A stretch of 64,000 nt of DNA from the NCBI RefSeq assembly GCF_014652235.1, contig NZ_BMYK01000016.1, forward strand, positions 62,001 through 126,000, read 5' to 3'. The DNA comes from Pseudorhodoferax aquiterrae. Lineage in GTDB: Bacteria; Pseudomonadota; Gammaproteobacteria; Burkholderiales; Burkholderiaceae_C. Below the pieces are notes generated by a model. That model had not been told where the DNA came from and searched no databases. It saw only the letters and a program-made list of their open reading frames with translations. Below, piece after piece: positions 26,854-56,098 of this stretch; positions within the stretch are counted from its first letter, which is position 1, and every line of letters starts with the position of its first letter. The translations under genes and the position numbers were made by a program.

Positions 26854-26869
26854 GTGACATCTTTGTCAT
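26854..26869. promoter_or_regulatory. ATGAC-N6-GTCAT-like box
   Basis: GTGAC-ATCTTT-GTCAT, one mismatch from the dyad consensus. It lies 195 nt upstream of the outer-membrane channel start. Confidence 0.5.
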
Positions 26870-27008
26870 CCGCCCGTCATGTACAAAACCCGATCCCGGC
26901 GTGGCGTGCCATCTCGCGGCGATCGGCGCATCGATCACGGGGCGGTCAATTGGACAGAGGCCGGATGCGCAGCCGCTGTCAGAAGTCCGACCTGTCAGGC
27001 CGTCCAAG

Positions 27009-27024
27009 ATGACCCATTTGTCAT
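27009..27024. promoter_or_regulatory. ATGAC-N6-GTCAT operator-like box
   Basis: ATGAC-CCATTT-GTCAT is a perfect dyad with 6-nt spacing. It belongs to a set of similar boxes at 26854, 36193, 37636, 51524, 51559 and 56083. The E. coli CusR box is AAAATGACAA-NN-TTGTCATTTT, which shares the ATGAC-N6-GTCAT core. Confidence 0.6.
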
Positions 27025-27166
27025 CTGATTTGAGGCCGAATGCCAGATCCGGCCTGAACAATGGGCCACTCCTGCGGGGACATGACCAGACCATGCCAGT
27101 GCAACCACGGCAAGCGCGCGACGTTCCACGTCTCCGCCCCCCTCAATGCTCTACTGCAGGTGCTCG

Positions 27167-27760
27167 ATGCTGAACGCAAGCCGCACAAGCCACCTTTCGG
27201 CTTCCCGCCGGTCCGTCGACACAGGCAGGCGATTGCTGGTCGCCAGCGCAATTCCCATGCTTGTCGGCATCGCTGGCTGCGCGAGCACCCCTCGCCCGCC
27301 ACGTGACCAAAGCACGTTGTACTGCCATCGAAGCAAGCTGGAGCACTACATCAAGGGCCCCTGCATAGACAAACCCGTGCCGTCGCTAGACGCCGACGCC
27401 GATGCCAAGAGCTTCAAAGCCGACCCAGAGCATCTGACGGTCTTCGTCGTCCGACACAGCTGGGCAGATGGACAAGATCTCGTCGTCGTCCGAGCCGACC
27501 AACAGCCAGGCGTTCAGACCCTTCCAGACACCTTCGTGCGCATTCGATTCACACCCGGAAAGCACCTTCTTGCGCTGTCGTTCGAAGAGCAGCGCGACTT
27601 CATCCATGTGCAGGGGAACGCGGGCGACGTTCAGTTCGTACGCCTCAAAGGCGTCGGGTTGTCTTGGCGCGTTCGCTACCGGTGGACCCTGGAAGACGAC
27701 GCCGACCTTCGCCAACGCGCGTTGAAGTCCCGACTGGTCGCGGACTTGCACGTCCACTGA
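27167..27760 (+). CDS. Lipoprotein, DUF2846-like, paralogue of 33695
   Basis: A 197-residue lipoprotein. ATG 27167 has a purine-rich site just upstream; ATG 27146 is a possible longer start. The signal ends in a lipobox (LVGIAGC-AS). The mature part has LYCHRSKLEHYIKGPCIDKPVPS, then LTVFVVRHSWADG, VQTLPDTFVRIRFTPGKHLLAL, and VQFVRLKGVGLSWRVRYRW. The order of strands and the PGKHLLAL motif resemble DUF2846-type lipoproteins of unknown function. A second copy (33695) shares these motifs, including C-Y-x-R-S-K-L-E-x-Y-I-K-G-P-C. It precedes the orphan histidine kinase by 46 nt, so cotranscription is likely. Confidence 0.8.
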   Translation: MLNASRTSHLSASRRSVDTGRRLLVASAIPMLVGIAGCASTPRPPRDQSTLYCHRSKLEHYIKGPCIDKPVPSLDADADAKSFKADPEHLTVFVVRHSWADGQDLVVVRADQQPGVQTLPDTFVRIRFTPGKHLLALSFEEQRDFIHVQGNAGDVQFVRLKGVGLSWRVRYRWTLEDDADLRQRALKSRLVADLHVH

Positions 27761-27806
27761 TCCCCGCATCTGCGCCGCTCGGCGGTCGCGTTTCGCTTAC
27801 TGCTCC

Positions 27807-29183
27807 ATGGTTTCCAACTCCCGCGCATCTCTGCCATCGCTGCGACGACGACTCCTCGCGCAACTCTCGTTTGCCGTCACAGCCTGGATCATCGTCGTTG
27901 GATCCATCGCCTATCAAGCCACCCTGACCAGCGTGGAGGACTTGGTGGACTCGCACCTCGCCAACGTCGGTGCACTTCTGGCAGCGCTCAACCCACGGGA
28001 CATTGGCCAGGCAAGCGCCTCGTCGATGCGGCAAACCTCACTGACCCTGTCGGTCACGGACGCAGCGGGTAGGACCGTTCTTCACACAGGTTCAGCACCT
28101 CTTCCGCCTGCGGACGTAGGGAACGGCTTCGCAACCCTTTCGCTAGGTCCTGACGGTCGAGCATGGCGGGTCTTCACCCGCACGCGCTCGGAAGACGGCG
28201 CGAAGGTGTCGGTGCTCATGGATCAGGCAGATCGTGGCAATCCTGTCGACCAGCTCACCGAGCACATCGCCACGGTCGCCATGTGGCTGTTGCCCGTACT
28301 GCTGCTGTCGTTGGCATGGATCGTGAAACGCGGCCTGAATCCTGTTTCCAAGCTGGGCCACGAGATGCGTGCAACGTGCTTTGGCTCACAGACACCGTTC
28401 AAGGCGTCGCACGAAGAGCTTGTTCCGCTGACGCAGACGCTTGTGCGGCTGGCCGAGTCGCACGAGGCGGCACTTCGGCGTGAACGAGATCTGGTCGACG
28501 GGTTCGTGCACGAACTTCGAACGCCCCTCACTTCCCTTCAGCTGCACGCCAACCTGATGCGTCGTCCGATGACGCCGGCCCAGCAAGCCACTGTCGTTGA
28601 CCAGATCCAGATCGACGCGTGCAGAGCCGGGACTACGCTGGCCGATCTGCTCACGCTCGCAAGGAGCAAGTCCATCGACAGCATGAGCGGAGTGCGGAGC
28701 TTCGATCTTGCCGCCCTGCTCCGCAAACTGGTCGACGACCACCGCAAGGAAGCGCAGAGCAAACAGCAGACACTCGTCATCGCTGCGCCATCGATGTGCG
28801 TCACGAGCGGCCATCCAGGGCTCCTTGACCTGGCGGTTCGCAATCTCATCACCAACGCGATCGGCCACGCACCGAGCGGAGCGACCATTGAGGTGCGGCT
28901 CAAGGGCATACCGGCCGTCGTCGAGGTGCGCGACAACGGCGCGGCGCAGAGCGGGACCGTTGATTTCGGAACAAATCTTCTCGGCCTTGGATTCGGCCAT
29001 CGATTCATCCGAGAGGTCGCGCGATCTCACAACGGCGCCTTCCGTGCAACCGGCCCCGACAGCGACGGGTGGCGAACGTACGCGATCGAACTCGGGCGAA
29101 ATCTCACGGCGCAAGAGCAGCCATCCCGCTCCGTCGACGCCGTAGCCGAGCGCCGGCTCGCCCACGCGGCGTCCGAAGCTTGA
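27807..29183 (+). CDS. Orphan sensor histidine kinase, QseC/PmrB-like
   Basis: A 458-residue inner-membrane kinase. Its N-terminal helix (LLAQLSFAVTAWIIVVGSIAYQA) and a second helix near residue 150 (IATVAMWLLPVLLLSLAWIV) flank a sensor domain of about 120 residues. The phospho-acceptor is His235 in FVHELRTPL. The N box LAVRNLITNAIGHAP, G1 VEVRDNG and a G2-type LGLGFGHRFIREV follow. The family phosphorylates OmpR-type regulators. No response regulator lies next to it; the nearest same-class candidates are at 39333 and 53726. It follows the lipoprotein gene. Together with eptA it recalls PmrAB-type control, but that is inference. Confidence 0.9.
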   Translation: MVSNSRASLPSLRRRLLAQLSFAVTAWIIVVGSIAYQATLTSVEDLVDSHLANVGALLAALNPRDIGQASASSMRQTSLTLSVTDAAGRTVLHTGSAPLPPADVGNGFATLSLGPDGRAWRVFTRTRSEDGAKVSVLMDQADRGNPVDQLTEHIATVAMWLLPVLLLSLAWIVKRGLNPVSKLGHEMRATCFGSQTPFKASHEELVPLTQTLVRLAESHEAALRRERDLVDGFVHELRTPLTSLQLHANLMRRPMTPAQQATVVDQIQIDACRAGTTLADLLTLARSKSIDSMSGVRSFDLAALLRKLVDDHRKEAQSKQQTLVIAAPSMCVTSGHPGLLDLAVRNLITNAIGHAPSGATIEVRLKGIPAVVEVRDNGAAQSGTVDFGTNLLGLGFGHRFIREVARSHNGAFRATGPDSDGWRTYAIELGRNLTAQEQPSRSVDAVAERRLAHAASEA

Positions 29184-33694: not shown

Positions 33695-34240
33695 TCAACC
33701 AAGCACAACATCCGCTACAAGCCTTGTCTTTGCCGCCCGCCGTCGAAGGCTTTCTGCACCTTCGTCGGTCCACCGGTACCGCCCCCGCCAAGACAGTCCA
33801 AAGCTCAGCAGACGAACAAAGCGCACTTGGCCGGCCTCGCCTCGCACGCCAATCTCATCTGTTTGATCCCTGAACTCCAAAGCAAGCACGTGCGCACCTG
33901 GCCGTAGCCGAAGACGCACCAACGTGTCGGGAAGCGTTTCGACCGCCGGATGCGAGGCAGCACGAACACGGACCACCACGGCCCCGTCCGCCCATCCCTG
34001 CCGCACCACGAAGACCGTCAGAAACCCCGGATCGGCCTCGAACCTCTTGGCGGCGCTGTCCATCGCCTGAGACGGTACGGGGCCGGCCAAACAAGGCCCT
34101 TTGATGTACGGCTCCAGCTTGCTTCGGTAGCAGAACGGATCGTCTTCCTCCGACGCATCCTTCGACGTCGCGCAGCCAGATAGAGTGGTGACTGCAGGGA
34201 GTAAGGCTGCCACCACGGTTCGACGCCCGATCTTGACCAT
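33695..34240 (-). CDS. Lipoprotein, paralogue of 27167
   Basis: The 181-residue lipoprotein begins MVKIGRRTVVAALLPAV with a lipobox at TTLSGC-AT. A GGAG site lies upstream of the ATG at 34240. It matches the lipoprotein at 27167 along its length, with shared motifs CYRSKLEPYIKGPC, LTVFVVRQGWADG, ETLPDTLVRLRLRPGAHVLAL, RFVRLLSFGLSWRGRYRW and KTRLVADV. Identity by eye is roughly half. It lies downstream of the EptA gene on the same strand with a 51-nt gap, so it is probably cotranscribed with it. Function is unknown; DUF2846-like. Confidence 0.8.
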   Translation of the reverse strand: MVKIGRRTVVAALLPAVTTLSGCATSKDASEEDDPFCYRSKLEPYIKGPCLAGPVPSQAMDSAAKRFEADPGFLTVFVVRQGWADGAVVVRVRAASHPAVETLPDTLVRLRLRPGAHVLALEFRDQTDEIGVRGEAGQVRFVRLLSFGLSWRGRYRWTDEGAESLRRRAAKTRLVADVVLG

Positions 34241-34290
34241 AGTGTGCTCCGCTCCCTGCTCACTTCTACACAACGGGCCCGCGGTCATCG

Positions 34291-35955
34291 TCAGATAGGG
34301 CCTTTGGCACTGCGGGTTGCCGAGTTCACGTCCGATGCACGACATCCCGCGAACACGTCCAGGTTCTCTCGATACGTGCCGGCGCGTGTGCCTGTAAGCC
34401 CCAACATCGAGTGGTAAAGGTTGTCGTGAGACAGCGTGTCCTTGCGACGCGACAAGCAGGCAACATCCAATTGCAGGCGAACCCTCGTCGCTGCGGGGAG
34501 CCATGCGACGAAGGGAACTTCCTTCTGAACCTGGGGAGCAAACTCATAGGGCATTCCGTGAAGGAAAAGCCCCTTCTCTCCCAACGATTCGCCGTGATCG
34601 GAAACGAAGACCATGGCTGTGTCCAGCCGATCCGATCGGGCTTCCAGCTCGCGGATCGTCTGATCGAGGATGAAGTCGGAATAGCGTACTGCGTTGTCGT
34701 AGGCGTTGACGACCTGCTCGACCGAGCACCGGTTCAGGGCGTTGTCGCGACATACCGGGCCAAATGCTTCGAACTCGGTGGGGTAACGAAGGTAGTACGC
34801 GGGACCGTGCTGACCCTTCATGTGCATGACGATCACCGTGTCGCGCTCGACGTTTGCAAGCCGTGCCTTGAGTGCTTCGACGAGCACTTCGTCCGTGCAG
34901 CCACCTTCACCGCAATCCTTGGCTGCGGCGGCGGGCACATCGATGACCTGTACGCGATCGCAAACGCCTTTGCATCCGGAGTTGTTGCTCAACCACCAGA
35001 CGTCCAATCCGGCCGCCTGGAGCACATCCAAAAGACTTTCGCGGCGGTACGCGAGACCGTCGTCGTAGCCTTGTCGGCCCACGTCGAGGAACATGCACGG
35101 AAGCGAGACCGCCGTCGCCGTTCCGCAAGACGCCGCCTTGCCAAAGTTCACGAGGCTCGCTCGTTTGGACAGCAGCGGGGCCGTAGGACGGTCGTAGCCG
35201 TTCCACGGGAGATTCGCAGCACGCATCGTCTCGCCCACAACCATCACGAACACCATCGGACGTCGCGACTGCGCCGCGCTCTCGGTCCGTGTAGCGCCTG
35301 TCGAAACGACTTCGAGTCGCTGGCTCGGCTTAAGGCGCGCTTTGACGTAGCCGTGTGCGGCTGACAGGTAGTTGGTTGGCACCAGCTGCAACCGAAGATC
35401 GCGGTGGTTGCGAAACAGAGAGGTGTAGGCCGCAGTTTGGAACACCAGAATCATTCCTGCGACGAACACGATGGCCGAAACGACGATCACCTTGTCTGTG
35501 ACCGTTGCCACCAGGCCTCTCGGAAGCCGCGGCCACCACGCCACGGCGAGCGCGGGCAGCACGCCGAAGCCAACAATCCAGAATGCCAACGATGGGCTCA
35601 GCAACTCCCGCGCCTCTGCCACGTCCGTCTCCATGACGTTGGTGAGCATGCCCCGGTCGAAAGCGATGCCGTATCGGTGCATGAAGTACGCCACAGCAGC
35701 CGACAGCACAAGGATCGTGCAGAGAACGGGCTTGGCAGCGCGCCCCCATGTCAGCAGTTCCAACGTCAGCCAAACCCACGCCAACGCGAAGACTGGGAGC
35801 GTCAGAAGATAGGCGGCGTGCTCAGCGTCCCATCCCCCGGTCGCTTGCCACAGAGATACCCAGAATGGCTCGTTCAGAAGTGCCAGGAGCCAAAGTGCTG
35901 CAGCCAGGTTCAGCACCGACCCTCTGACGGCTGCGGGGCGGTTGCGCGCCCTCAC
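34291..35955 (-). CDS. eptA: Lipid A phosphoethanolamine transferase (EptA/MCR family)
   Basis: The 554-residue inner-membrane enzyme starts at GTG 35955, behind an excellent GGAGGGGAGA site. About five transmembrane helices occupy residues 10-175. The periplasmic sulfatase-like domain has Glu242 (VVGETMRAAN), the phospho-acceptor Thr281 (SCGTATAVSLPC), Cys277 and Cys287 spaced as in the MCR-1 disulfide, and SDHGESLGEKGLFLHGMPY. It adds phosphoethanolamine to lipid A phosphates, lowering negative charge and sensitivity to polymyxin-type peptides. A box ATGAC-AAATCA-GTCAT lies upstream (36193-36208). The downstream lipoprotein is on the same strand. Confidence 0.94.
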   Translation of the reverse strand: MRARNRPAAVRGSVLNLAAALWLLALLNEPFWVSLWQATGGWDAEHAAYLLTLPVFALAWVWLTLELLTWGRAAKPVLCTILVLSAAVAYFMHRYGIAFDRGMLTNVMETDVAEARELLSPSLAFWIVGFGVLPALAVAWWPRLPRGLVATVTDKVIVVSAIVFVAGMILVFQTAAYTSLFRNHRDLRLQLVPTNYLSAAHGYVKARLKPSQRLEVVSTGATRTESAAQSRRPMVFVMVVGETMRAANLPWNGYDRPTAPLLSKRASLVNFGKAASCGTATAVSLPCMFLDVGRQGYDDGLAYRRESLLDVLQAAGLDVWWLSNNSGCKGVCDRVQVIDVPAAAAKDCGEGGCTDEVLVEALKARLANVERDTVIVMHMKGQHGPAYYLRYPTEFEAFGPVCRDNALNRCSVEQVVNAYDNAVRYSDFILDQTIRELEARSDRLDTAMVFVSDHGESLGEKGLFLHGMPYEFAPQVQKEVPFVAWLPAATRVRLQLDVACLSRRKDTLSHDNLYHSMLGLTGTRAGTYRENLDVFAGCRASDVNSATRSAKGPI

Positions 35956-36192: not shown

Positions 36193-36208
36193 ATGACAAA
36201 TCAGTCAT
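36193..36208. promoter_or_regulatory. ATGAC-N6-GTCAT box upstream of eptA
   Basis: ATGAC-AAATCA-GTCAT is a perfect dyad embedded in AAAATGACAAATCAGTCATC, very close to the E. coli CusR box. It sits 238 nt upstream of the eptA start in AT-rich DNA. Confidence 0.6.
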
Positions 36209-36346: not shown

Positions 36347-37411
36347 TCAGAAGCTGTGCTTGATGCCCACCTCGGCACCGGTGGAGTTGCCGGACCAGCC
36401 ACCCGGCGTCGGTGCACCACCGGCGATGGCGAAGTTCGCGCCGCCGTCGTTGCTGACGCGGGAGACCGTGCCGTAGATGGAGGTGCGCTTGGACATGTTG
36501 TGGACGTAGCCGATCGCCCACTTGTCAGCATCGCTGTCGTTGTAGCCGGCCGTGCCCTTGCGAGCGTTGGTGCGAACGTACGATGCGCGGATCTGGTCGT
36601 TGCCGATCGGGATGTTGACGCCAATCAGCCAGCGATCTTCGGAACCGGCCGTGACTCCGGCGGTGCCGTAGGTGCCGAACGGCAGATCGTCGCGGTACAT
36701 GCTTGCGATCAGCTGCGCCACGCCGAAGTTGTACGAGCCAGCCAAGCCCAGCTGCTTGTACTTGCCGGTGCTGGTGCCGTTGTAAGCAACGTTGGTGGTG
36801 CCGTAGGAGAGAGAAACGCTCACCGGGCCGTTGTCGTACGACAAACGACCGGACATGTGGCGACCGGTGTTGCTGGTTGCCTGCTCGTCAGGAGCGAACA
36901 TGAACTCTGCCTGCAGACCGCCGAAGTTCGGGGTGAAGTAGCCGACAGCGTTGTCGTGGCGGTAGTAGGAGGCGATGGCGCCGGGGATGCGGCTGGTCAC
37001 GTTCTGGCCGCCGATACCGATCACACCAAACGGGTCGTACTTGAAGGAATGCACGGAGGCGGGCGAGAAATCGCGGCCCAGGCGGATCTCACCCCAGTTG
37101 CCCATCAGGCTCACCGTGGAACGACGCTGGAACATCTTGCCCGTGGGGCTGATGGTTCCGGTGTCGGCATTGACGTCCGATTCCAGCCAGAAGCCGGCCT
37201 TCAGGCCGCCGCCGAGGTCCTCCACGCCACGGAAGCCGAGACGGCCGGACGACAAGCCGCTGTTGCTCATGCCGTAGTTGCTGCTCAGGCCGCTGTTCTT
37301 GACGTAGCGAACGTTCGCGTCGACGACGCCGAACAGGGTCACAGAAGACTGCGCGCTTGCGCCGAGGGATGCGGCGGCGAGCGAGAGTGCCAGTGCGCGA
37401 TTGATTTTCAT
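36347..37411 (-). CDS. Gram-negative trimeric porin (Omp32-like)
   Basis: The 354-residue precursor begins MKINRALALSLAAASLGASAQSS, giving signal cleavage before SSVTLFGVVDANVRY. It shows the betaproteobacterial porin pattern: GLSSGRLGFRGVEDLGGGLKAGFWLESD (described by its ends), WGEIRLGRDFSP, repeated aromatic beta-strands, and the C-terminal HSF, with the last residue Phe. It should be a non-specific or weakly anion-selective diffusion channel. Its region between 37,412 and 37,768 carries a box (37636) that could affect both it and the divergent Sel1-RR operon. A terminator follows at 36,250. Confidence 0.95.
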   Translation of the reverse strand: MKINRALALSLAAASLGASAQSSVTLFGVVDANVRYVKNSGLSSNYGMSNSGLSSGRLGFRGVEDLGGGLKAGFWLESDVNADTGTISPTGKMFQRRSTVSLMGNWGEIRLGRDFSPASVHSFKYDPFGVIGIGGQNVTSRIPGAIASYYRHDNAVGYFTPNFGGLQAEFMFAPDEQATSNTGRHMSGRLSYDNGPVSVSLSYGTTNVAYNGTSTGKYKQLGLAGSYNFGVAQLIASMYRDDLPFGTYGTAGVTAGSEDRWLIGVNIPIGNDQIRASYVRTNARKGTAGYNDSDADKWAIGYVHNMSKRTSIYGTVSRVSNDGGANFAIAGGAPTPGGWSGNSTGAEVGIKHSF

Positions 37412-45108: not shown

Positions 45109-48100
45109 TCAGCTAGCATGCGGCGCTGCAAGCCGCTGCGATGGCGGTTGGTCTTGCGCGCCCTCCTCGTCTTCCTCCTGATCGCGGCGGTATGCCAGTC
45201 GGTACAGTACCGGCAAGACCAAAAGCGTCAGAGCGGTCGACGACAGAATCCCGCCGATCACGACCGTCGCGAGCGGGCGTTGAACCTCCGCACCCGTCCC
45301 GGTGGCGATGGCCATCGGCACGAAACCGAGCGATGCAACCAACGCGGTCATCAGCACGGGGCGAAGGCGGGTCAAAGCACCCTCTCGCACCGCATGGTCA
45401 ACCGATGCTCCGCCTTCTCGCAGGTTGCGGATGAACGAAATCATGACCAGGCCGTTCAGCACGGCGACACCAGACAGCGCGATGAAGCCGACGGCTGCCG
45501 TGATCGACAGCGGCATGTCCCGCAGCCACAGGGCCACGATGCCGCCGGTCAACGCAAACGGGATGCCGGTGAACACGATCAGGCCGTCACGGATGTTGCC
45601 GAACATGGCGAACAGCAGCGTGAACACCATGAGCAGTGCTACCGGAACCACGATCTGAAGGCGCTGCGTGGCAGATTGCAGGTTCTCGAACTGGCCGCCC
45701 CAGGTCATCCAGTATCCTGGGGGAATCGTCACTTGCTGCTGGATCGCCGAACTGGCCTCCTGGACGAACGAGCCCATGTCACGGCCACGTACGTTGGTGC
45801 TGACCACGATGCGGCGCTTGCCGTCCTCTCGGCTGATCTGATTCGGACCAGGAGCCAATTCGAGAGTCGCCAGTTCCGACAGCGGGATGAAGCTCACGCG
45901 AGCGGATCCCCCCGACTGCTCGCCCGCGGGCAGCGTGATCGGCAGACGTCGAATCGACTCCAGGTCGCCGCGCAGGTTTTCGGGCAGACGAACCACGATG
46001 TCAAAGCGACGATCGCCTTCGAACAGGGTGCCCGCACTACGCCCGCCGATTGCGGTCGCGATGGTGTCCTGCACGTCGCCGATGTTGACGCCATAGCGCG
46101 CGGCCTTGGTTCGGTCGATCTTGACGGTGAGCATGGGTAGCCCGGTGGTCTGCTCGACGTTGACCTCGGACGAGCCGCTGATGTCGCCCAGGACCTTTGC
46201 GATCTCTTGGGCGGTCTTGTTCAACTGGTCCATGTCGTCGCCGAACACTTTGACAGCCACGTCGGCGCGGACCCCGGAGATCAGTTCGTTGAAGCGAAGC
46301 TGAATCGGCTGCGAAAACTCGTAGTTGTTGCCAGGCAGTTCGCCGACGCGCTTTTGAACGGCGGCCACAAGTTCCTGGTGCGTGCGCTTGGGAGTAGGCC
46401 AATCGTCTTCAGGCTTGAGCATCACGTACGCGTCCGAGATGTTGGGCGGCATCGCGTCCGAGGCGATCTCGGCCGTGCCGGTGCGCGCGAACACGCGCTC
46501 GATCTCCGGGAACTCCTCCTTCAGCGTGCGCTCGAGCTGCTGCTGCATCTGCACCGACTGCGTGAGGCTCGTGCCCGGTATGCGCAGGGCCTGGATGGCG
46601 AAATCGCCCTCGTTCAAGCTCGGAATGAACTCGCTTCCAAGACGCGTGGCCACCAGGCCGGACAGCACGATGGCGACGCCAGCAACGGTCAGGACCACAG
46701 CTTTGGCGCCCATCGCACGGTCCAGCAGCGGTTCGTACGCGCGGCGCGCCCAGCCCATCAGGCGGTTCTCCTTCTCGCCAACCTTCTTGCCGATGAACAG
46801 CGCCACGGCAGCGGGAATGAACGTCACCGACAGGATCATGGCGCCCAGCAGTGCGATCACGACGGTCAACGCCATCGGATGGAACATCTTGCCTTCGACG
46901 CCGGTGAGCGCAAAGATCGGCAGGTACACCACCATGATGATCAGCTGGCCGAACAGAAGCGGGCGGCGTGCCTCTTGAGATGCAGCGAACACTTCATGGA
47001 AGCGCTCGCTGCGCGTCAGTGGCCGGCCAAGACGCTCCTGCGCATGGGCCAATCGACGCACGCAGTTCTCGACGATCACGACAGCACCGTCGATGATGAT
47101 GCCGAAGTCCAGCGCCCCCAAGCTCATGAGGTTCGCGCTGACCTTCTGATTGACCATGCCCGTGAACGTGAACAGCATGGACAGCGGAATCACCAGTGCT
47201 GTCAGAAGCGCCGCTCGGATGTTGCCCAGGAACAGGAACAACACCACGATCACCAGCACAGCGCCTTCGAGCAAGTTCTTCTTGACGGTGGCAATCGCCT
47301 TATCCACGAGCACCGTGCGGTCGTACACTGTGACGGCCTTGACCCCCTCGGGCAGGTTGCGATTGATTTCCTCCATCTTCTTGGCCACGGCCTGAGCCAC
47401 AGTACGGCTGTTCTCGCCAATCAGCATGAACACCGTGCCAAGGACGACCTCTCGGCCGTTGTCGGTGGCGGCACCCGACCGCAGATCGCGGCCGATCTCA
47501 ACGTCAGCCACGTCGCGCACGCGCACCGGCGTGCCGCCGCTGTTCGCGAGCACGATGTTGCGAAGATCCTCCAGCCCGGTCGCCTGGCCGGGCGCACGGA
47601 TCAGATACTGCTCGCCGCGCCGCTCGATGTAGCCCGCGCCGACGTTGGCGTTGTTGCGCTCCAGGGCCTGGACCACATCGCCAAGACTCAGACCGTAGGC
47701 AAGCAGACGATCTGGCAGCGGAGCAATCTGGTATTGCTTTTCAAACCCGCCGATGGTGTTGATTTCGGTCACACCGGGCACGTTGCGCAGTTGCGGCTTG
47801 ATGATCCAGTCTTGGACCACCCGCAGGTCGGTCGGGGTGTACGGCGTCCCATCTTCCTTCTTGGCCCCCTCCTCGGCTTCCACGGTCCAGAGGTAGATTT
47901 CCCCCAGCCCCGTGGAGATTGGCCCGATGACAGGTCGAACGCCTTCTGGCAGAGAAGACGCTGCGCCTTGCACCCGCTCGTTCACGAGCTGGCGTGCGAA
48001 GTACACATCTGTGCCATCCTTGAAGATCACGGTGATCTGCGAAAGACCATAGCGAGACATGGAACGTGTCTGCTGCAGGCCTGGAAGGCCTGCCATGACC

Positions 48101-48312
48101 GTCTCAAGCGGAAAGGTCACGCGCTGCTCGGTCTCCAGCGGCGAGTAGCCAGGTGCAGCGGTGTTGATCTGGACCTGGACGTTCGTGATGTCCGGTACGG
48201 CCTCGATCGACAGCCGCTGGTAGTTGTAAATGCCCAGGCCTACCATGCCCAGCACGGCCAGCAGGACCAGCCAGCGCTGCTCGATGGCGAAGCGGATGAT
48301 GCGTTCAAACAT
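45109..48312 (-). CDS. czcA: HME-RND efflux pump, CzcA-type
   Basis: The 1067-residue transporter has 12 transmembrane helices and two large periplasmic loops. In TM4 it has DFGIIIDGAVVIVEN, the CzcA (HME1) form, which predicts Co/Zn/Cd rather than Cu/Ag (CusA) transport. Other motifs are GYSPLETEQRVTFPLETVMAGLPGL, GLGEIYLWTVE, and GTSLTQSVQMQQQLE. It takes divalent metal from the periplasm or cytoplasm and uses protons. It starts 13 nt after czcB, in the order czcI-czcC-czcB-czcA leftward. It is far from the backbone in base composition. Confidence 0.95.
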   Translation of the reverse strand: MFERIIRFAIEQRWLVLLAVLGMVGLGIYNYQRLSIEAVPDITNVQVQINTAAPGYSPLETEQRVTFPLETVMAGLPGLQQTRSMSRYGLSQITVIFKDGTDVYFARQLVNERVQGAASSLPEGVRPVIGPISTGLGEIYLWTVEAEEGAKKEDGTPYTPTDLRVVQDWIIKPQLRNVPGVTEINTIGGFEKQYQIAPLPDRLLAYGLSLGDVVQALERNNANVGAGYIERRGEQYLIRAPGQATGLEDLRNIVLANSGGTPVRVRDVADVEIGRDLRSGAATDNGREVVLGTVFMLIGENSRTVAQAVAKKMEEINRNLPEGVKAVTVYDRTVLVDKAIATVKKNLLEGAVLVIVVLFLFLGNIRAALLTALVIPLSMLFTFTGMVNQKVSANLMSLGALDFGIIIDGAVVIVENCVRRLAHAQERLGRPLTRSERFHEVFAASQEARRPLLFGQLIIMVVYLPIFALTGVEGKMFHPMALTVVIALLGAMILSVTFIPAAVALFIGKKVGEKENRLMGWARRAYEPLLDRAMGAKAVVLTVAGVAIVLSGLVATRLGSEFIPSLNEGDFAIQALRIPGTSLTQSVQMQQQLERTLKEEFPEIERVFARTGTAEIASDAMPPNISDAYVMLKPEDDWPTPKRTHQELVAAVQKRVGELPGNNYEFSQPIQLRFNELISGVRADVAVKVFGDDMDQLNKTAQEIAKVLGDISGSSEVNVEQTTGLPMLTVKIDRTKAARYGVNIGDVQDTIATAIGGRSAGTLFEGDRRFDIVVRLPENLRGDLESIRRLPITLPAGEQSGGSARVSFIPLSELATLELAPGPNQISREDGKRRIVVSTNVRGRDMGSFVQEASSAIQQQVTIPPGYWMTWGGQFENLQSATQRLQIVVPVALLMVFTLLFAMFGNIRDGLIVFTGIPFALTGGIVALWLRDMPLSITAAVGFIALSGVAVLNGLVMISFIRNLREGGASVDHAVREGALTRLRPVLMTALVASLGFVPMAIATGTGAEVQRPLATVVIGGILSSTALTLLVLPVLYRLAYRRDQEEDEEGAQDQPPSQRLAAPHAS

Positions 48313-48325
48313 TGCTTCGCGACCC

Positions 48326-49663
48326 TCAGTGGCTATGCGTTGCAGAACTCTTGCCCTGCTCGGATTTGATGACGAAGCTGCCATCGGCGGCGTAGGACTC
48401 GCCGGACTGCAAGCCTTCGAGGATCTCCACCCGCTGCCCGTCGGAGCGGCCAATGCGAACAGGCCTCGCCTCGAATCCGCCCTCCACCTTCACGAACACG
48501 GACGGCTTGTCCTCCACGGTCTGCACCGCGTCGGATGCGACGGTGACCGGCGACGGCGTTTCGTTGTCGTTGGTCAGCACCTCGACGGTGACGAACAGGC
48601 CGGGCCGCCAAGCGCCCCGCGGGTTGTCCAGAACCACCCGCGCAGGCGCCGTGCGCGTCTGCGCCCCGATCAGCGAGCCCACATAGGAAATTTTTCCGTC
48701 GGCCACCATGTCGGCGGCGGCGGCACGCACCCGCACGCGCTCGCCAACCCGAACCTGCATGAGGTCACGCGCGCTCACACTCATCTCTGCCCAGACGGTG
48801 GACAAATCGGACAAGGTGAACACGTTCGTGCTTTCTTGGACGGCTTCGCCGAGGGCGATGTGCTTCTCGACCACCATGCCATCGAAGGGAGCGCGCAACT
48901 CGACACGGCCCAGGGCACCACTGCTCGGCGCCGCGCCCAACGTGCGGAGCTGCTGGGTGGCGTTCGCCACGGCGATCTCCGCCTCGCGCAGAGCCTGGCG
49001 TGCCTGCAGCACGTCCTGCTCGGGCGAAATTTTCTGCTCCCAGAGCGTGCGTTCGCGATCGTAGGTCGTCTGCGCCAGTTCGCGGCGTCGTTGCGCGGCT
49101 TGCAGGTCCGATCGGATCGACGAAACGCCAGCACTCGACACCACGGCGAGGACTTGTCCCTTGCGCACCTGTTGGCCCAGGTTGGCGCTGACACCTTCGA
49201 CGACCCCAACCACACGAGGAACGATGTGGGCCGTCCGGTCTTCGTTGAATCGGATCTCACCAGGCAGCTGCAACGCAGTGCGAACGATTGCCGATCCGCT
49301 CCGTTCGATCTTGATGCCTGCAGACTTCACCTGCGCATCGGTCATGGGCACCTTCTCGGCCTCCTCCTTATGGCCGCCCGACTCTTCCTTGGCCGGTGCC
49401 GCGCTCGACTTCGAAGGCTGCGCTTCCTTGGGTTCGGACTTCCCCGCCCCCTTGCTCGCATCTTTTTCCTCGGCGCCATGACCGTGTCCGTCGTCCTCAG
49501 ACTGACTGGTCTTTTCTCCGTGACCATGCCCGTCGCCCTCGCCGTGGCTTTCGCCACCTCTGAGCAACAGATAGGCACCAGCACCGCCGAGCAGCAGCAC
49601 CAAGACGATCACGATGAGTTGGGTGCGTCCGGACGTGGCGGACGTGCTTTTCGAATTGGCCAT
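48326..49663 (-). CDS. czcB: Periplasmic adaptor (membrane fusion) protein CzcB
   Basis: The 445-residue adaptor has an N-terminal anchor helix (LIVIVLVLLLGGAGAYLLL) and a His/Gly/Glu-rich segment (GESHGEGDGHGHGEK and DDGHGHGAEEK) near residues 40-65 that should bind metal. A long coiled hairpin, a lipoyl domain (VVGVVEGVSANLGQQVRKGQVLAVV) and a beta-barrel (APFDGMVVEKHIALGEAVQ) follow. A short C-terminal HSH tail may also bind metal. It links CzcA and CzcC. The extended His-rich N-terminus is typical of CzcB relatives. Confidence 0.95.
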   Translation of the reverse strand: MANSKSTSATSGRTQLIVIVLVLLLGGAGAYLLLRGGESHGEGDGHGHGEKTSQSEDDGHGHGAEEKDASKGAGKSEPKEAQPSKSSAAPAKEESGGHKEEAEKVPMTDAQVKSAGIKIERSGSAIVRTALQLPGEIRFNEDRTAHIVPRVVGVVEGVSANLGQQVRKGQVLAVVSSAGVSSIRSDLQAAQRRRELAQTTYDRERTLWEQKISPEQDVLQARQALREAEIAVANATQQLRTLGAAPSSGALGRVELRAPFDGMVVEKHIALGEAVQESTNVFTLSDLSTVWAEMSVSARDLMQVRVGERVRVRAAAADMVADGKISYVGSLIGAQTRTAPARVVLDNPRGAWRPGLFVTVEVLTNDNETPSPVTVASDAVQTVEDKPSVFVKVEGGFEARPVRIGRSDGQRVEILEGLQSGESYAADGSFVIKSEQGKSSATHSH

Positions 49664-49671
49664 GACAGCAA

Positions 49672-50958
49672 TCAGGGTTGGGTAAAGGTGGGGCCGATGA
49701 CGCGAGCGACGTCCGCCACCGCACGGTGGGCGTCACCAAGCGAACGTAGGTACTGGGCTCTCGCTTGCAGCAGGGTGCGTTGAGCGTCGAGCACATCGAG
49801 GTACTGGAACTTGCCGAGTTCGAATCCCCTGGCTGCTGCGTCAAAAGCCGTTTGCGCAGAGGGAAGGATCTCGGACGTGACCGCCGACACTTCCTCAGAA
49901 GCGACGGTGAGCCGTTGTCGTGCGATCGAGAGATCCGCTTGCAAGCGGAGTTCCAACGCGCGCGTGTCGTCCTCGGACTTGTCTCGCCGGCGCAGGGCCT
50001 CGACGATGTTCCCGCGGTTGGTGTCGAAGACGGGCAGCGGGATGGACACTCCGACGACAGCGATCGTGCTCCCCCTGCCTTCTTGCTGAGCGCGCTGAAA
50101 CCCAGCGCTGACCGTGATGTCCGGGGTTCTCTTGGCCAACTCCAGATCGGCCAGCGCCGACAGCCTTTGGGTCTCCAAGCGAGCTTGGCGCAACGTGGGG
50201 GAACCGACCGCCGTCTGCTGCAAGACTTCGATGCTCGGCAATGTTGGCAGCGTCAATGCATCGCCGTTGAGCGACTCGAACGGGACGTTTGCCGTCGTCA
50301 ATGCACGTAGTTCCTGCAGCTGGGCTCGAAGCTCGCCCTGGGCCTGGACCAGTTCAAGCCGCACGTTCGCTTCGGCAACCTTGGAGCGCGTTTCTTCAAG
50401 TGGCGAGACCTTTCCCGCCTGGACTCGCCTGGAAGCAGCCAAACTCCCAGACCGTGCGACGTCCAACGACGCCTGAGCAAGCCGCACTCGCTCCTGAGAC
50501 AGGAGCGCAGCCAGGAAGACCGCCGTGACGTCTGCACGCAGCTGGGTTTCGCGCAGCTGCTTGGCGACCCGCGCTCCTTCGACCGCGCGCTCCGCCGCAT
50601 TGACTCTGGCCGCGCGCTTGCCACCGAGTTCGAACGGCTGGCTAAGCGACATCGTGGTCGTCCGACTGCGCGTCCTGACGTCTTCAACGTCGACGCTCAA
50701 CGTTGGGTTCTGGTACACGCCAGCTTGTATCAGCGCACCTTCGGCAGCTTCGATTTCTCGCTGCGCGGCCGACAGGGACGGATTGAACTCCAACGCAGCC
50801 TGAACAGCCTCATTCAACGTAAAAGCGCGGGGAGCCAAGGCCGCACCGGGGCTCACCTGCGAAACGGCCGTCACGGGCGGTACGACCGGTTGAGCAAGCG
50901 CAGACGCACTTCCCAAAGCCGCCAGCGCAAAGGCGAGCGGCGCAATCAACCTGCACAT
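49672..50958 (-). CDS. czcC: Outer-membrane efflux channel CzcC (TolC family)
   Basis: The 428-residue precursor has a signal (LIAPLAFALAALGSASALA) and the OEP repeats FTLNEAVQAALEFNPSLSAAQREIEAAEGALIQAGVYQNPTLS (ends given) and TLRQARLETQRLSALADLELAKRTPDITVSAGF. It forms the trimeric exit duct of the CzcCBA complex. It ends 9 nt before the czcB start, and a small gap (84 nt) separates it from the CzcI gene. The C-terminus is DVARVIGPTFTQP. Confidence 0.94.
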   Translation of the reverse strand: MCRLIAPLAFALAALGSASALAQPVVPPVTAVSQVSPGAALAPRAFTLNEAVQAALEFNPSLSAAQREIEAAEGALIQAGVYQNPTLSVDVEDVRTRSRTTTMSLSQPFELGGKRAARVNAAERAVEGARVAKQLRETQLRADVTAVFLAALLSQERVRLAQASLDVARSGSLAASRRVQAGKVSPLEETRSKVAEANVRLELVQAQGELRAQLQELRALTTANVPFESLNGDALTLPTLPSIEVLQQTAVGSPTLRQARLETQRLSALADLELAKRTPDITVSAGFQRAQQEGRGSTIAVVGVSIPLPVFDTNRGNIVEALRRRDKSEDDTRALELRLQADLSIARQRLTVASEEVSAVTSEILPSAQTAFDAAARGFELGKFQYLDVLDAQRTLLQARAQYLRSLGDAHRAVADVARVIGPTFTQP

Positions 50959-51042: not shown

Positions 51043-51390
51043 TTAAGCTTGCAGCGGCCATTTGGGCCGCTCGATGTCCGGTATGTGGATCGAAGTCATG
51101 GCAGGGCATGGCGACGAGATAAGGTCGCCAGCGCCCTGAGCGGTAACGGCTGGCGGAAGGTGCTCAGACGGATGAGCGGTCCACGCATGGCACGCGCTGC
51201 AGTCGGGATCGCCAAGTGCCGAGTCGCCAGTGGCTGCCTCCGAACTGGTCTGCGAATCGGCGTGGGAGTGAACATGATGGCCAAAATGCGCGGCTGCCAC
51301 CTGTTTTTCGTGAGCGCAGTACCCCGCAGCCGCAGCCCAAGTCATGCGCAACGGCATGAGCAGGAGCAAGGCGAGGAGCACCCAGCGCAT
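51043..51390 (-). CDS. CzcI-like protein, first gene of the czc operon
   Basis: A 115-residue exported protein. ATG 51390 gives a signal MRWVLLALLLLMPLRMTWA; a TTG at 51414 would add eight residues. The mature part has YCAHEKQVAAAHFGHHVHSHADS, with His and Cys residues in the CzcI pattern, and DPDCSACHAW later. CzcI is located just upstream of czcC in related metal-resistance loci; its role is thought to be regulatory or metal-binding. Two boxes (51524 and 51559) lie upstream between it and the response regulator. Confidence 0.8.
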   Translation of the reverse strand: MRWVLLALLLLMPLRMTWAAAAGYCAHEKQVAAAHFGHHVHSHADSQTSSEAATGDSALGDPDCSACHAWTAHPSEHLPPAVTAQGAGDLISSPCPAMTSIHIPDIERPKWPLQA

Positions 51391-51608
51391 CAGCGAACGG
51401 TTAGAACCAAACAAACAGGACCTTTTCAGTCAATAGGACAGCGACCACTCAGGCTGTCCGCCTACGGGTTTCCCCGGGCGACCAAGTGTAGGAACATGTT
51501 CCGACCCATCTTCCAACGCATTGATTACTTTTTTGTCATCTCGCTTTCCTGGGCAAGCATGACAAAAATATCATCTCCGCATTCTTGCATTCGGAACACA
51601 ATTTCGTC
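51391..51608. promoter_or_regulatory. Divergent czcICBA/czcRS control region with two operator-like boxes
   Basis: The gap carries ATTAC-TTTTTT-GTCAT (51524-51539) and ATGAC-AAAAAT-ATCAT (51559-51574). Their starts are 35 bp apart, between the leftward czcI and the rightward response regulator. A perfect palindrome GGAACATGTTCC (51491-51502) lies further toward czcI. This is the expected place for self-control by the two-component system. Confidence 0.65.
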
Positions 51609-52286
51609 ATGCAGATTTTGATCATCGAGGACGAACTCAAGCTTGCCCAGTATCTTCAGAAAGGGCTGCGCGAGGAGGGATTTTCCGTGGACATGGCGCA
51701 CGACGGCGTCACCGGGTTGGAGGCGGCGTCGTTGCACCGCTACGACCTCATCGTGCTCGATGGCATGCTGCCTGGCTTGGACGGGTTGGCGGTACTCGCT
51801 GCGCTGCGGCAGAGCCAGCAGACGCCGGTTCTCATGCTGACCGCACGTGGGGAGGTCGAGGATCGGGTGCGCGGGCTGCGCACGGGCGCCGACGACTACC
51901 TCGTCAAGCCGTTCGCGTTCTCGGAGTTGGTTGCGCGGATTCAGGTTCTGCTGCGGCGCATGCTGCCATCGTCCGGCGAGACGACGGTGCTGAAGCTTGC
52001 AGACCTTGAGGTCGACCTCATTCGACGACGGGTCACGCGCGCTGGACAACGTTTGGAGCTGACCAACAAGGAATTCAACCTGCTTACGTTGCTGCTTCGC
52101 AGGCAGGGCGCTGTGTTGTCACGAACGGAAATTGCTGCGCAAATCTGGGGGATGAACTTCGACAGCGAAACCAACGTGGTCGAGGTTGCGGTCCGCCGTC
52201 TGCGCGGCAAACTGGATTTGCCATTTGACACGCCGCTCCTGCACACCGTGCGGGGCATGGGCTACGTGCTTGAACAACGCGGATGA
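51609..52286 (+). CDS. czcR: OmpR-family response regulator, CzcR/CusR/CopR-like
   Basis: The 225-residue regulator has a complete receiver: Glu7-Asp8-Glu9 acidic set (IIEDELKL), phospho-acceptor Asp51 in VLDGMLPGLDG, TAR motif, and DDYLVKP. The winged-helix domain has RAGQRLELTNKEFNLLTLLLRRQGAVLSRTEIAAQIWGM (ends given), TNVVEVAVRRLRGKLD and LLHTVRGMGYVLEQ, as in CusR/CopR/IrlR. ATG 51609 is overlapped by the end of the box-rich region. Its stop overlaps the kinase start (ATGA). It most likely binds the ATGAC-N6-GTCAT boxes, which is inference. Confidence 0.94.
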   Translation: MQILIIEDELKLAQYLQKGLREEGFSVDMAHDGVTGLEAASLHRYDLIVLDGMLPGLDGLAVLAALRQSQQTPVLMLTARGEVEDRVRGLRTGADDYLVKPFAFSELVARIQVLLRRMLPSSGETTVLKLADLEVDLIRRRVTRAGQRLELTNKEFNLLTLLLRRQGAVLSRTEIAAQIWGMNFDSETNVVEVAVRRLRGKLDLPFDTPLLHTVRGMGYVLEQRG

Positions 52287-53656
52287 CGAAGGCAGCCACC
52301 CGAAGTTTGGGGGCGCGGCTTTCGTTCTGGCTGGCGTTGCAGGCGATGGCGGGTTTGGGCCTTATTTGTGGAGCCCTTTACTTCGCCATCGACTGGACAC
52401 TTGCCGATCGTCAGCACGAAACCCTGGTTCAGAAGGAGCTGGCGGTACGAGATCAGATTGGCCAGAATCTGGCGAGATCGGATCCGGAAGAGTTGACCCA
52501 TTTGCTCAGTGCGATGCTGGCCGGCCATTCGGACCTGGGACTTCGCCTCGAGGAAGACAAGGGCGCGCTCATCTTCGATCACCCCTTGACCGTTGGATCA
52601 AGCAGCACCGATCCTCACGCGCATGTCGTGGACATGGCCATCGAGGGGCTGGAGCGACCCGTCCGGATGTATCTGACGCTCGACACGAGTGCCGACTCCG
52701 CACTGCTTCACAGCGTGGCTTGGATGCTGTTTCTCGCCGCGGTGGGTGGAGCCGCCCTTGTTTCCACGGGTGCGTTCGTGTTGGTCCGGTGGAACTTGAT
52801 GCCTCTTCACCAATTGGTCGCGCAGACGCAGAAGGTCACGGCCGACACGTTGGAGCGCAGGCTCGATGGATCCGCTCAGCCCGCAGAGATCCAGCCGTTG
52901 ATCGCTCAGATGAACGCCCTCCTGGATCGCCTCGCAGCGGCGTACCGGCAAATGGAAGCATTCAACGCTGACGTCGCGCACGAACTGAACACGCCTCTCA
53001 CCACCCTCATCAGCAGCAGCGAATTGGCGCTGCGTCGGTCGCACAGCCTCGCCGATTTGCAGGACGTCTTAGGGTCCAACCTTGAAGAACTCGCGCGACT
53101 TGCACGCATCGTGGCCGACATGCTCTTTCTGTCAAGGGCACATCGCGGCGTTGGCGCGCGACGGGAGCTGGTCAGCAGCTTGGCACAGCTAGCGGCGGAC
53201 GTGGTGGAGTTCCATGAAGCGGCCATGCAAGAGGCCGAACTGGAGCTTGAACTCGTAGGCGATGCGGCAGCAGCGGTCGATGGCAGACTTCTGCAGCGAG
53301 CACTGTCCAACCTGCTGAGCAATGCGACCAGGCATGCGACGCGCGGGTCAACGGTGAAGCTGATGATCCAACGAACGGACGACGACACGGTTCGAATCTT
53401 GGTGGAGAACGAAGGTGAAACGGTGTCAGCAGAGCATCTGCCAAGACTGTTCGATCGATTCTTCAGGGTGGATCCCGCACGCAGCCACGCGGACCGCAAT
53501 CACGGTCTTGGATTGGCCATCGTCGGCGCCATCGCGCACATGCACCAGGGTGGAACCGTCGCGGAGTCCGAAGGTGGCAGGACCCGGATCGGACTTTGGC
53601 TATCGGACTACTCGACCGCTGAAGGGCCCGGTGCGGCGCCTGCGGGGGCGCGGTGA
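52283..53656 (+). CDS. czcS: Metal-responsive sensor histidine kinase, CzcS/CusS-like
   Basis: A 457-residue kinase with two transmembrane helices: FWLALQAMAGLGLICGALYFAIDW near residue 15-38 and MLFLAAVGGAALVSTGAFVLVRW near 155-177. A HAMP region and phospho-acceptor His233 in DVAHELNTPL follow. N box LLSNATRHATRGST, a degenerate G1 (VENEGETVSAEHLP), F box LFDRFFRVD and G2 HGLGLAIVGAIAHMH are seen. It is coupled to the response regulator by ATGA. The periplasmic loop of about 100 residues should sense metal. The family is the heavy-metal sensor group (TIGR01386-like). Confidence 0.93.
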   Translation: MTKAATRSLGARLSFWLALQAMAGLGLICGALYFAIDWTLADRQHETLVQKELAVRDQIGQNLARSDPEELTHLLSAMLAGHSDLGLRLEEDKGALIFDHPLTVGSSSTDPHAHVVDMAIEGLERPVRMYLTLDTSADSALLHSVAWMLFLAAVGGAALVSTGAFVLVRWNLMPLHQLVAQTQKVTADTLERRLDGSAQPAEIQPLIAQMNALLDRLAAAYRQMEAFNADVAHELNTPLTTLISSSELALRRSHSLADLQDVLGSNLEELARLARIVADMLFLSRAHRGVGARRELVSSLAQLAADVVEFHEAAMQEAELELELVGDAAAAVDGRLLQRALSNLLSNATRHATRGSTVKLMIQRTDDDTVRILVENEGETVSAEHLPRLFDRFFRVDPARSHADRNHGLGLAIVGAIAHMHQGGTVAESEGGRTRIGLWLSDYSTAEGPGAAPAGAR

Positions 53657-54403: not shown

Positions 54404-54510
54404 GTCTGGGGACGCACCAACTTTCCGTTCCGTTCGAACCGGGGGAGGCACGAGAACATCGCATGCGCCATGCGGGTCGAAACAACGATCATTCTCTCCT
54501 CCACTTGGAG

Positions 54511-55029: not shown

Positions 55030-55133
55030 CTTATGCCTCCTAAGCCACGCACCTCGTGACGGATGTCTCGTTCATCCGAGCGCGCAATCCGTGCACGGTC
55101 TGCCGCGGCCGCGCAGCGCCACGTTCCAATCCC

Positions 55134-55490
55134 CTAGCGTTCCGGTCCTAAGCGGTCCGGCTCACCCGTCGGTGCCTTGACCACCTTCTGACGCGCTGGC
55201 GCCTCATCCGTGGAAGCGCCCTCGCCTGAGGGTCGCCGCTCCGCCAGCACCTCTCGCAGTTGGACGGACAGATCCAAAAGTTTGGCCTTCTTGGCGTACT
55301 TTCCCCGGCGCTTCCATTCGCCCATCAACGCCACGGCCAATCGGAAGGAACGACCGTTCAGATCGAAAAGCCTTTGCAGCGAAAAAAGTCGATGCGACTC
55401 CAGAGACAGAATGAGATCGGCCAACACGGCGGTGTCGCGCCGGAAGGGATGGCACTTGATGTTCCGAGTTGCGCGCTTGTAAGGATGCAT
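55134..55490 (-). CDS. Hypothetical basic protein
   Basis: The 118-residue protein has no recognised domain. It is basic (MHPYKRATRNIKCHPFRRDTA), with a helical centre (LADLILSLESHRLFSLQRLFDLNGRSFRLAVALMGEWKRRGKYAKKAKLLDL, ends given) and a Pro/Ala-rich tail. No signal or membrane segment is found. It lies between the MgtC and DUF4148 genes on the same strand. Confidence 0.5.
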   Translation of the reverse strand: MHPYKRATRNIKCHPFRRDTAVLADLILSLESHRLFSLQRLFDLNGRSFRLAVALMGEWKRRGKYAKKAKLLDLSVQLREVLAERRPSGEGASTDEAPARQKVVKAPTGEPDRLGPER

Positions 55491-55626
55491 GCGGTACCTG
55501 GTGAGATGTGAGCCAGCATGAGCCGGAAATGGGCTTCGGGCTGCGGGTGCGCGACAGTGCGACCCTAGCAGCCCGAGATAACGGAGGTGGTGCGACCGCT
55601 TCGGCGGTCTCGGCAGTTCCGCCCGA

Positions 55627-55998
55627 TTACAGCTTGCCGCCGCCCATGGTGCCTTCCCGAACGGCCTGCACCGCCTCTGCGTGCACCTCGGCGCGGCTGC
55701 GCAAGCTCAGCGCCTCACGGTTCGTGCCGATGTCCGAGCCTTCGGCAGTGCTTTGCGGTCCGTCCTCTGCGAGGTCGCGCAGCACTTCGGCGCGAGAGAC
55801 AACGCTCTTGGACTTGGTGACCTGCGAGACGTATCCGACCTCGCCGGTCGGCGAGAGTCGGCCGGAGTCGCGCGCCTTGAAGTACTCGGCTCGCACTTGC
55901 TCCCGGGTCAGCGGCGCATCGGAAGCTGCGCTGGCCTGAGAGGCTGCACCGATCAAAGCGGCGAGTGCGACGATGGCGAAGCGATGGCGTTGAGACAT
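55627..55998 (-). CDS. DUF4148 exported protein
   Basis: A 123-residue exported protein: signal FAIVALAALIGAASQASAA, then SDAPLTREQVRAEYFKARDSGRLSPTGEVGYV, the DUF4148 core with L-T-R-E-Q-V-R-A-E. The tail has SLRSRAEVHAEAVQAVREG. Family members are common in Burkholderiales, short and periplasmic, and often change with stress or metals; function is unknown. GTAAC-AAAAAC-GTCAT on its strand (56083-56098) is 85 nt upstream and fits the regulon box in part. Confidence 0.88.
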   Translation of the reverse strand: MSQRHRFAIVALAALIGAASQASAASDAPLTREQVRAEYFKARDSGRLSPTGEVGYVSQVTKSKSVVSRAEVLRDLAEDGPQSTAEGSDIGTNREALSLRSRAEVHAEAVQAVREGTMGGGKL

Positions 55999-56082
55999 GG
56001 GGTTCCTTTCGTTAAAAACCTGCGCAACGTCTGCGCATGCCTCTAGTGTCGAAACCGAAACCGCCTCATGCCGAACCGGACG

Positions 56083-56098
56083 ATGACGTTTTTGTTAC
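56083..56098 (-). promoter_or_regulatory. GTAAC-N6-GTCAT box upstream of DUF4148 gene
   Basis: On the minus strand, GTAAC-AAAAAC-GTCAT keeps one full half-site and the 6-nt spacing of the regulon box. Confidence 0.4.

Follow-up and report, generated by a model that had tools for sequence, protein, structure and literature searches.

Candidate CusR/CopR/CzcR-type operators precede efflux, lipid A, porin, and lipoprotein genes in a metal-resistance island of Pseudorhodoferax aquiterrae

A palindromic box, ATGAC-N6-GTCAT, recurs in a 64-kb stretch of the Pseudorhodoferax aquiterrae genome (hereafter the window, i.e., positions 62001-126000 of contig C16, or 0.9% of the 7.1 Mb genome), where it stands in front of metal efflux, lipid A modification, porin/Sel1, lipoprotein, and DUF4148 genes. 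We consider it probable, at roughly 70%, that these boxes are operators of CusR/CopR/CzcR-class response regulators heading five units of one metal-resistance island, where they would be read by CzcR and/or by a kinase-less regulator encoded at 39333, and that a metal signal would thereby induce EptA, a phosphoethanolamine--lipid A transferase, a proposal built on sequence comparison. The box type is itself known; its use as a metal-type operator for a phosphoethanolamine transferase gene looks new, as does a recurrent module made of a porin, a Sel1-repeat protein, and a response regulator. The island covers ~24-56 kb of the window and has a G+C content of 0.59-0.66, vs 0.68-0.76 before it; it contains czcCBA, a czcI-like gene, czcRS, genes for an EptA-family transferase, ArnC-like, ArnT-like, and other envelope proteins, a porin, and a QseC/PmrB-like kinase, along with cardiolipin-synthase-like and DedA-like genes.

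The boxes and the genes behind them

All seven boxes reported by the initial annotation are found at their coordinates and are intergenic by the gene map; an eighth, weaker site (51595) accompanies them, each of the eight differing from ATGAC-N6-GTCAT at zero to two positions. As originally formulated, the pattern barely exceeds chance expectation: with up to two mismatches, the bare core gives 23 matches in the window, many of them within genes, against 15.5 +/- 3.9 in dinucleotide shuffles, of which 2 in 100 reach 23. Because these statistics are too weak, we replaced the core by a 17-position matrix trained on 20 boxes that precede response-regulator genes in genomes other than this one (boxes of the window had no part in the training, and two of the 22 candidate boxes, L041 and L044, were left out). 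With this matrix, the seven boxes score 16.7-27.1 and the eighth 17.2, which makes them the top eight sites of the window; the next-best, at 15.9, lies at 48369, within czcB/czcA. By comparison, 30 shuffled windows gave on average 0.1 strand-hits at 16.5 or more (maximum 2, top score 20.1), and the reversed window gave 0 matches at 11 or more.

Genome-wide, the strict pattern WTKAC-N6-GTMATC occurs at 14 distinct places (0 in the backward control), three of which belong to the 64-kb window, where three of the eight sites, box 27009 included, satisfy it. Four of the 14 places score at least 20, namely the three window sites and one before a second czcR on contig C2; C3:88459 and C63:1769 score 17-18, and the other eight do not exceed 15.2. 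A looser core with one mismatch is found at 145 places, vs 37 in the backward control. The box-like site C63:1769 (L195; 18.1) lies upstream of an open reading frame (ORF) that is Rrf2-like by eye. Perfect or near-perfect sites elsewhere (C1:248300/248391, C1:141633, and C12:51229) were set aside and look, by eye, like other operators or coding sequence; two of them, C1:248300 and C1:248391 (L074:8301, 8392), are near-perfect ATGAC-N6-GTCAT palindromes paired 91 bases apart, perhaps the operator of a different repressor.

Three boxes share the czcI/czcR gap: box 1 (ATTAC-TTTTTT-GTCAT, 51524..51539, plus strand, one mismatch, score 26.5), box 2 (ATGAC-AAAAAT-ATCAT, 51559..51574, plus, one mismatch, 21.8), which stands 34 nt before the czcR ATG, and the weaker third (AACAC-AATTTC-GTCAT, 51595..51610, plus, 17.2), which reaches that ATG. 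This gap separates a CzcI-like gene (51043..51414, minus; NF045614, 78 bits, below the cut-off of 100) from the response regulator gene czcR (51609..52286, plus), whose product, at 305.8 bits, exceeds the TIGR01387 cut-off of 279.2 and is thus a member. To one side lie the metal efflux genes czcCBA (45109..50958, minus; CzcA TIGR00914, 1752.6 bits, cut-off 701), and to the other the sensor kinase gene czcS (52283..53656, plus; TIGR01386, 342.2 bits, cut-off 292.6). Further along, GTAAC-AAAAAC-GTCAT (56083..56098, minus, two mismatches, 16.7) is found 84 nt before the gene of a small DUF4148 protein (55627..55998, minus; PF13663, 52.5 bits, cut-off 27).

The highest-scoring box, ATGAC-TGATTT-GTCAT in minus-strand reading (36193..36208, no mismatch, 27.1), lies ~237 nt ahead of the likely GTG start, at 35955, of the transferase gene eptA (34291..35955, minus), whose ORF opens at 36156, the start being placed by inspection. 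The product exceeds the NF028537 cut-off (544.5 vs 500 bits) and is below that of PRK11598, the EptA equivalog (494.8 vs 660 bits), and far below that of the MCR-12 model (397.1 vs 1200 bits); the putative label "polymyxin-type" for its activity rests on EptA family membership. On one side, eptA is flanked by the porin gene and, on the other, by a lipoprotein-like ORF (33695..34504, minus; no Pfam match), Rrf2, and ArnC-like genes. We assigned the box to eptA because a terminator-like hairpin (36267-36251, minus), situated behind the porin gene and upstream of the box, separates the box from the porin; this hairpin is itself assigned by context, one having been found where shuffles led us to expect 2.4.

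In the gap between the genes of a Gram-negative porin (36347..37528, minus; Porin_4, E 1e-59; ATG probably near 37411) and of a Sel1-repeat protein (37769..39289, plus; Sel1, 27 bits, below the cut-off of 30.7), ATATC-AAATTT-GTCAT (37636..37651, plus, two mismatches, 21.6) stands 117 nt before the Sel1 ATG. The Sel1-repeat gene probably heads an operon shared with the gene at 39333 (39333..40007, plus), which encodes a heavy-metal-type response regulator without an adjoining kinase; TIGR01387 is still its best NCBIfam match, so that at 258.4 bits, for a cut-off of 279.2, we regard it as being of this class without filing it as a member. Two further boxes, GTGAC-ATCTTT-GTCAT (26854..26869, plus, one mismatch, 19.4) and ATGAC-CCATTT-GTCAT (27009..27024, plus, no mismatch, 23.6), occupy the gap before a lipoprotein–kinase gene pair, the second lying 121 nt ahead of the point where the lipoprotein ORF starts. 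The lipoprotein (27146..27760, plus) is weakly DUF2846-like (Pfam E 0.25, under the cut-off), and the histidine kinase (27807..29183, plus) is QseC/PmrB-like, with no regulator gene recognised next to it. The outer-membrane gene 25853-26710 was set aside as a boxed target, and the two boxes were assigned to the lipoprotein–kinase side, because an upstream site of 14 or more is found in none of its 29 relatives. Downstream of the kinase gene, a 561-aa ORF (29331-31016, minus) has a DsbA/thioredoxin-like C-terminal domain; its relatives in L169 and L174 have czc/regulator genes nearby.

Conservation and recurrence

In Pseudorhodoferax soli, czcI/czcR boxes 1 and 2 persist as identical 16-base islands amid diverged flanks, and the third (51595) is partly conserved. 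Before eptA, P. soli keeps GATGA and TTGTCAT, which means that the half-sites are largely conserved though the EptA proteins are 65% identical, and the distance from the box to the likely start is 222 nt there and 237 nt in the window (starts by inspection); the EptA search of the genome contigs matched P. soli only. TATCAAA-NN-TGTCATC is kept before Sel1, and the DUF4148 box aligns among the window, P. soli, and the genome's own contig C2. A common operator type, as proposed in the initial annotation, can thus be retained for czcI/czcR, eptA, porin/Sel1-regulator, and DUF4148, all four of which align in P. soli (with Sel1 below 15 there), and is doubtful for the outer-membrane gene, which in P. 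soli lies 55 nt behind the regulator gene in the same orientation and could be co-transcribed with it. In P. soli, eptA shares one locus with the lipoprotein, kinase, Sel1, and regulator genes, and eptA, lipoprotein, and kinase form one gene run behind one box, whereas in the window the lipoprotein–kinase pair is 5 kb from eptA, with its own boxes at 26854 and 27009. The lipoprotein-like ORF behind the window eptA is 54% identical to the lipoprotein at 27146 over 186 residues and 40% identical to the P. soli lipoprotein region.

Relatives of the regulator at 39333 are present in 84 of 150 family genomes, from which 30 loci were taken for an upstream scan. A box matching at 8 or more of 10 positions within 200 nt upstream was found at 22 of these 30 loci, which include the window's own 39333 with no box directly before it, vs 39 of 300 control stretches; such boxes are often ~34 nt from the ATG, at similar distances across many genera. 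On sequence grounds, the boxes are probable CusR/CopR/CzcR-type operators, as expected of autoregulatory sites of that regulator class, and the likeness to the E. coli CusR operator and its regulator class that had been noted initially is supported. Published operators include AAAATGACAAnnTTGTCATTTT for E. coli CusR and, in Pseudomonas aeruginosa, CTGACAn5GTAAT for CopR and GAAACn6GTAAT for CzcR, one shared palindrome being reported as bound by CusR, CopR, and CzcR in Pseudomonas (excerpted text of PMC11195947). Regulator 39333 retains a recognition helix of this class (TNIIDVAIRRLRRKLD), similar to the one in CzcR (TNVVEVAVRRLRGKLD), whereas the PmrA-like regulator of contig C22, encoded next to the other eptA of this genome, has a different helix (SNAIEVHVHHLRRKLG). 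Altogether, three response regulators of the island are best matched by TIGR01387, one of them exceeding its cut-off; the third, diverged one (53726-54451, minus; 149 bits) has an altered recognition helix and adjoins an MgtC/SapB-like gene.

Relatives of the Sel1 protein are present in 23 of 299 genomes of the family, and among 27 Sel1 loci (window included) a porin lies within the stretch in 25 and a regulator of this class in 11. Although outside the matrix training, 11 of 25 Sel1 promoters have an upstream match of 16 or more, vs ~0.13 expected from shuffles, these 25 loci leaving out the window and the mis-registered L159 and being partly non-independent, since some share a genus or a genome. 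The same genome has a second Sel1-porin-regulator cluster (L073, G000:C48:8000-18000), with ATTAC-AGAGAT-GTAAT before Sel1, and the Hydrogenophaga BPS33 plasmid pBPS33-1 (L203) has a Sel1-type gene divergent from a porin gene within a CopK/CzcE island that contains several boxes, scoring up to 29.8. In L165, the box behind the porin gene precedes a CzcE-family gene. DUF4148 genes with an upstream box are found in five loci, by matrix in the window, P. soli, L168, and L175, and by core only on contig C2. Relatives of the weakly DUF2846-like lipoprotein lie beside czc or regulator genes (L068, L168, L169, L172, L175), and the one of L172 sits between czcI and czcR.

With regard to eptA, of the 69 genomes carrying a close czcA, at least 7 (our own, G056, G071, G146, G186, G188, and G215) have the gene no more than 10 kb away, a count made by eye from the matches listed; contig C90 of G222 (L167) is a further case. 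The gene directly follows czcA in L171 and L172; in L170 and L173, the two are no more than 1.5 kb apart. In L167, a 24.7-scoring site overlaps the end of eptA, ahead of an FlgB-like gene; the window also encodes a stand-alone FlgB-like flagellar rod protein (25200-25661, minus), which recurs in metal/eptA clusters (L068:4862-5320; L167:16108-16497).

On plasmids, we examined seven loci out of 40 EptA records listed (1777 matched). Plasmid 3 of Variovorax WDL1 has a 29.4-scoring box in the 184-nt gap from a heavy-metal regulator to eptA, and two near-identical Cupriavidus regions have a 24.2-scoring box ahead of a small ORF, eptA, and PAP2, the reversed controls giving 0 in all three. In P. 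koreensis p3 (G+C 0.49), a 28.2-scoring site precedes the regulator gene, at 0.9 kb from eptA. P. putida pKF715B shows boxes near a regulator gene and another gene, none being before eptA; a glycosyltransferase family 2/family 39 pair lies near its eptA and heavy-metal regulator. Janthinobacterium J1-1 and Variovorax RA8, where eptA accompanies a two-component pair or arn genes, have no site of 14 or more at these loci. The grouping of eptA with metal genes is strengthened relative to what had been proposed from the window, eptA being found in czc clusters of other genera and boxed on plasmids of two other genera.

Regulation and competing explanations

According to the reading that we favor, a phosphorylated regulator dimer would bind ATKAC-N6-GTMAT and control the adjoining promoter in five units, namely czcI(CBA)/czcRS, DUF4148, eptA, lipoprotein-kinase, and Sel1-regulator(39333) along with the porin that diverges from it. 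These boxes would be read by CzcR and/or the kinase-less 39333, probably with cross-talk, a behavior described for Cupriavidus CzcR with several kinases (excerpted text of PMC10127602), and kinase 27807 may be the partner of 39333. The likely signal would be a periplasmic metal excess (Zn/Cd/Co, perhaps Cu) leading to regulator phosphorylation, upon which efflux, small periplasmic proteins, and EptA would be switched on. EptA would add phosphoethanolamine to lipid A and so render less negative the surface charge that attracts metal cations, the pump would expel the metal, and polymyxin tolerance, should there be any, would come as a side effect. We advance more tentatively, at odds somewhat worse than even, a wider version in which EptA/MCR-type genes of Burkholderiales metal islands would repeatedly have come under a CzcR/CopR-class operator, so that metal would itself induce polymyxin-type lipid A modification, by co-regulation in addition to co-selection, and in which Pseudorhodoferax would use a split two-component system for this, its kinase-less regulator being paired with a Sel1 protein and a porin and its kinase being encoded elsewhere with a lipoprotein, the two parts joined by the shared box.

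Several observations weigh against this proposal. In P. soli, the eptA box is incomplete in one half-site, matrix scores remain below 15 for the Sel1 box of that species and for the DUF4148 box of contig C2, and 14 of the 25 Sel1 promoters stay below 16. The eptA box stands unusually far from the likely start (~237 nt), and the surroundings of this box and of 27009 show no sigma-70-like promoter. Regulator 39333 falls short of the TIGR01387 cut-off (258.4 vs 279.2). The window's boxed lipoprotein–kinase pair may be a second copy and not a displaced one, because the lipoprotein-like ORF (33695-34504) remains behind the window eptA, whose type is found in two of six genomes of the genus. No box of 14 or more precedes the other eptA genes in any of 28 loci taken from the best-matching ones, out of the 182 of 299 genomes with an eptA match (L118, whose eptA promoter scores 9.9, was left out of this count), and four of the seven plasmid loci lack a box heading eptA itself. 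Finally, the reversed control of P. koreensis p3 gave five matches up to 19.5, which makes the matrix less specific there.

The main rival, which we regard as unlikely while taking it seriously, posits two regulons with one operator type: metals would act through CzcR on czc and DUF4148, and a second, envelope signal, e.g., cationic peptides or pH, would act through 39333 and kinase 27807 on eptA, the lipoprotein, and Sel1/porin, in which case the metal–lipid A coupling would be absent. Indeed, the nearest matches of kinase 27807 are kinases of the QseC/PmrB type and those that accompany ordinary eptA genes, and eptA, lipoprotein, kinase, Sel1, and regulator stay together in P. soli. The eptA-regulator-kinase locus on contig C22 (L071) has a kinase related to 27807, and no matrix match of 15 or more is found in the 12 kb around it. 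However, similar recognition helices and boxes predict cross-binding, CusR, CopR, and CzcR are all reported on one palindrome in Pseudomonas (PMC11195947, excerpted text), and boxed eptA genes lie amid metal genes on the Variovorax WDL1 and Cupriavidus plasmids, where the sole annotated two-component pair of the stretches is the heavy-metal pair of WDL1. By eye, the spacers of boxes near CzcR and near 39333 show no clear sequence difference.

It would be more improbable still that only the czcI/czcR boxes, perhaps with those of Sel1 and DUF4148, are at work and that the eptA and lipoprotein boxes are rearrangement leftovers or chance occurrences. If the near-chance frequency of the bare core and the unboxed state of the other eptA genes examined speak for such a view, the scores of 27.1 and 23.6 top the 30-shuffle maximum of 20.1, P. 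soli preserves most of both eptA half-sites at 65% protein identity, and a box stands before eptA on plasmids of two other genera. As for the idea that these palindromic, clustered, intergenic elements of a lower-G+C region belong to repeats, to terminators, or to the ends of mobile elements, it is scarcely credible for five-base arms without a T run that recur at similar regulator-start distances in many genera, the sole terminator-like hairpin in 35900-37800 being another element.

Relation to known systems

Among the literature matches listed (titles and abstract openings, with most subscription journals outside), no CzcR/CopR-class operator before eptA is described, and no title in the literature search describes a porin-Sel1-regulator module. 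If the metal-responsive operator reading is true, metal-polluted soils and waters would induce, beyond co-selecting, polymyxin-type envelope changes, and a role of EptA in metal defence would be suggested. The metal–lipid A link would then be testable in other islands, and it is a link that has not been proposed for mcr-12 beside czcCBA.

The island shares with E. coli CusR (AAAATGACAAnnTTGTCATTTT) the ATGAC-N6-GTCAT core, the regulator class, and a divergent regulator/efflux promoter; however, the CusR regulon is described as very restrictive (PMC11195947, excerpted text), whereas the island box also heads eptA, lipoprotein-kinase, porin/Sel1, and DUF4148. P. aeruginosa CzcR (GAAAC-N6-GTAAT), which controls czcCBA and represses oprD, is alike in its class, six-base spacer, and porin target (PMC13209446, PMC11195947, excerpted texts), and differs in that the main text of PMC13209446 never mentions eptA. 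The island porin is, unlike that target, of the Porin_4 type and adjoins a Sel1-regulator pair.

P. aeruginosa ColRS, for its part, is a separate two-component system, and the eptA that it controls presumably lies outside a metal-efflux island. It resembles our proposal in that a two-component system responding to metal governs a phosphoethanolamine transferase for lipid A, zinc inducing eptA via ColRS without raising colistin resistance (PMC9952513, excerpted text), and a role of lipopolysaccharide modification in metal tolerance under ColRS has been proposed by the authors of PMC4074579 (excerpted text). The eptA-pmrAB type of locus has its counterpart on contig C22 of the same genome, where an eptA-regulator-kinase set includes a related kinase, whereas no pmrA/pmrB pair adjoins eptA in the window. 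A parallel in gene content is mcr-12 of the Pigmentiphaga plasmid pPLE30.2, a transferase gene lying beside czcCBA and arsHCB in a betaproteobacterial metal-resistance region; its expression is reported as constitutive and a shared regulatory pathway is not suggested in the excerpted text of PMC13373230, whereas the transferase gene of the window has a metal-regulator box.

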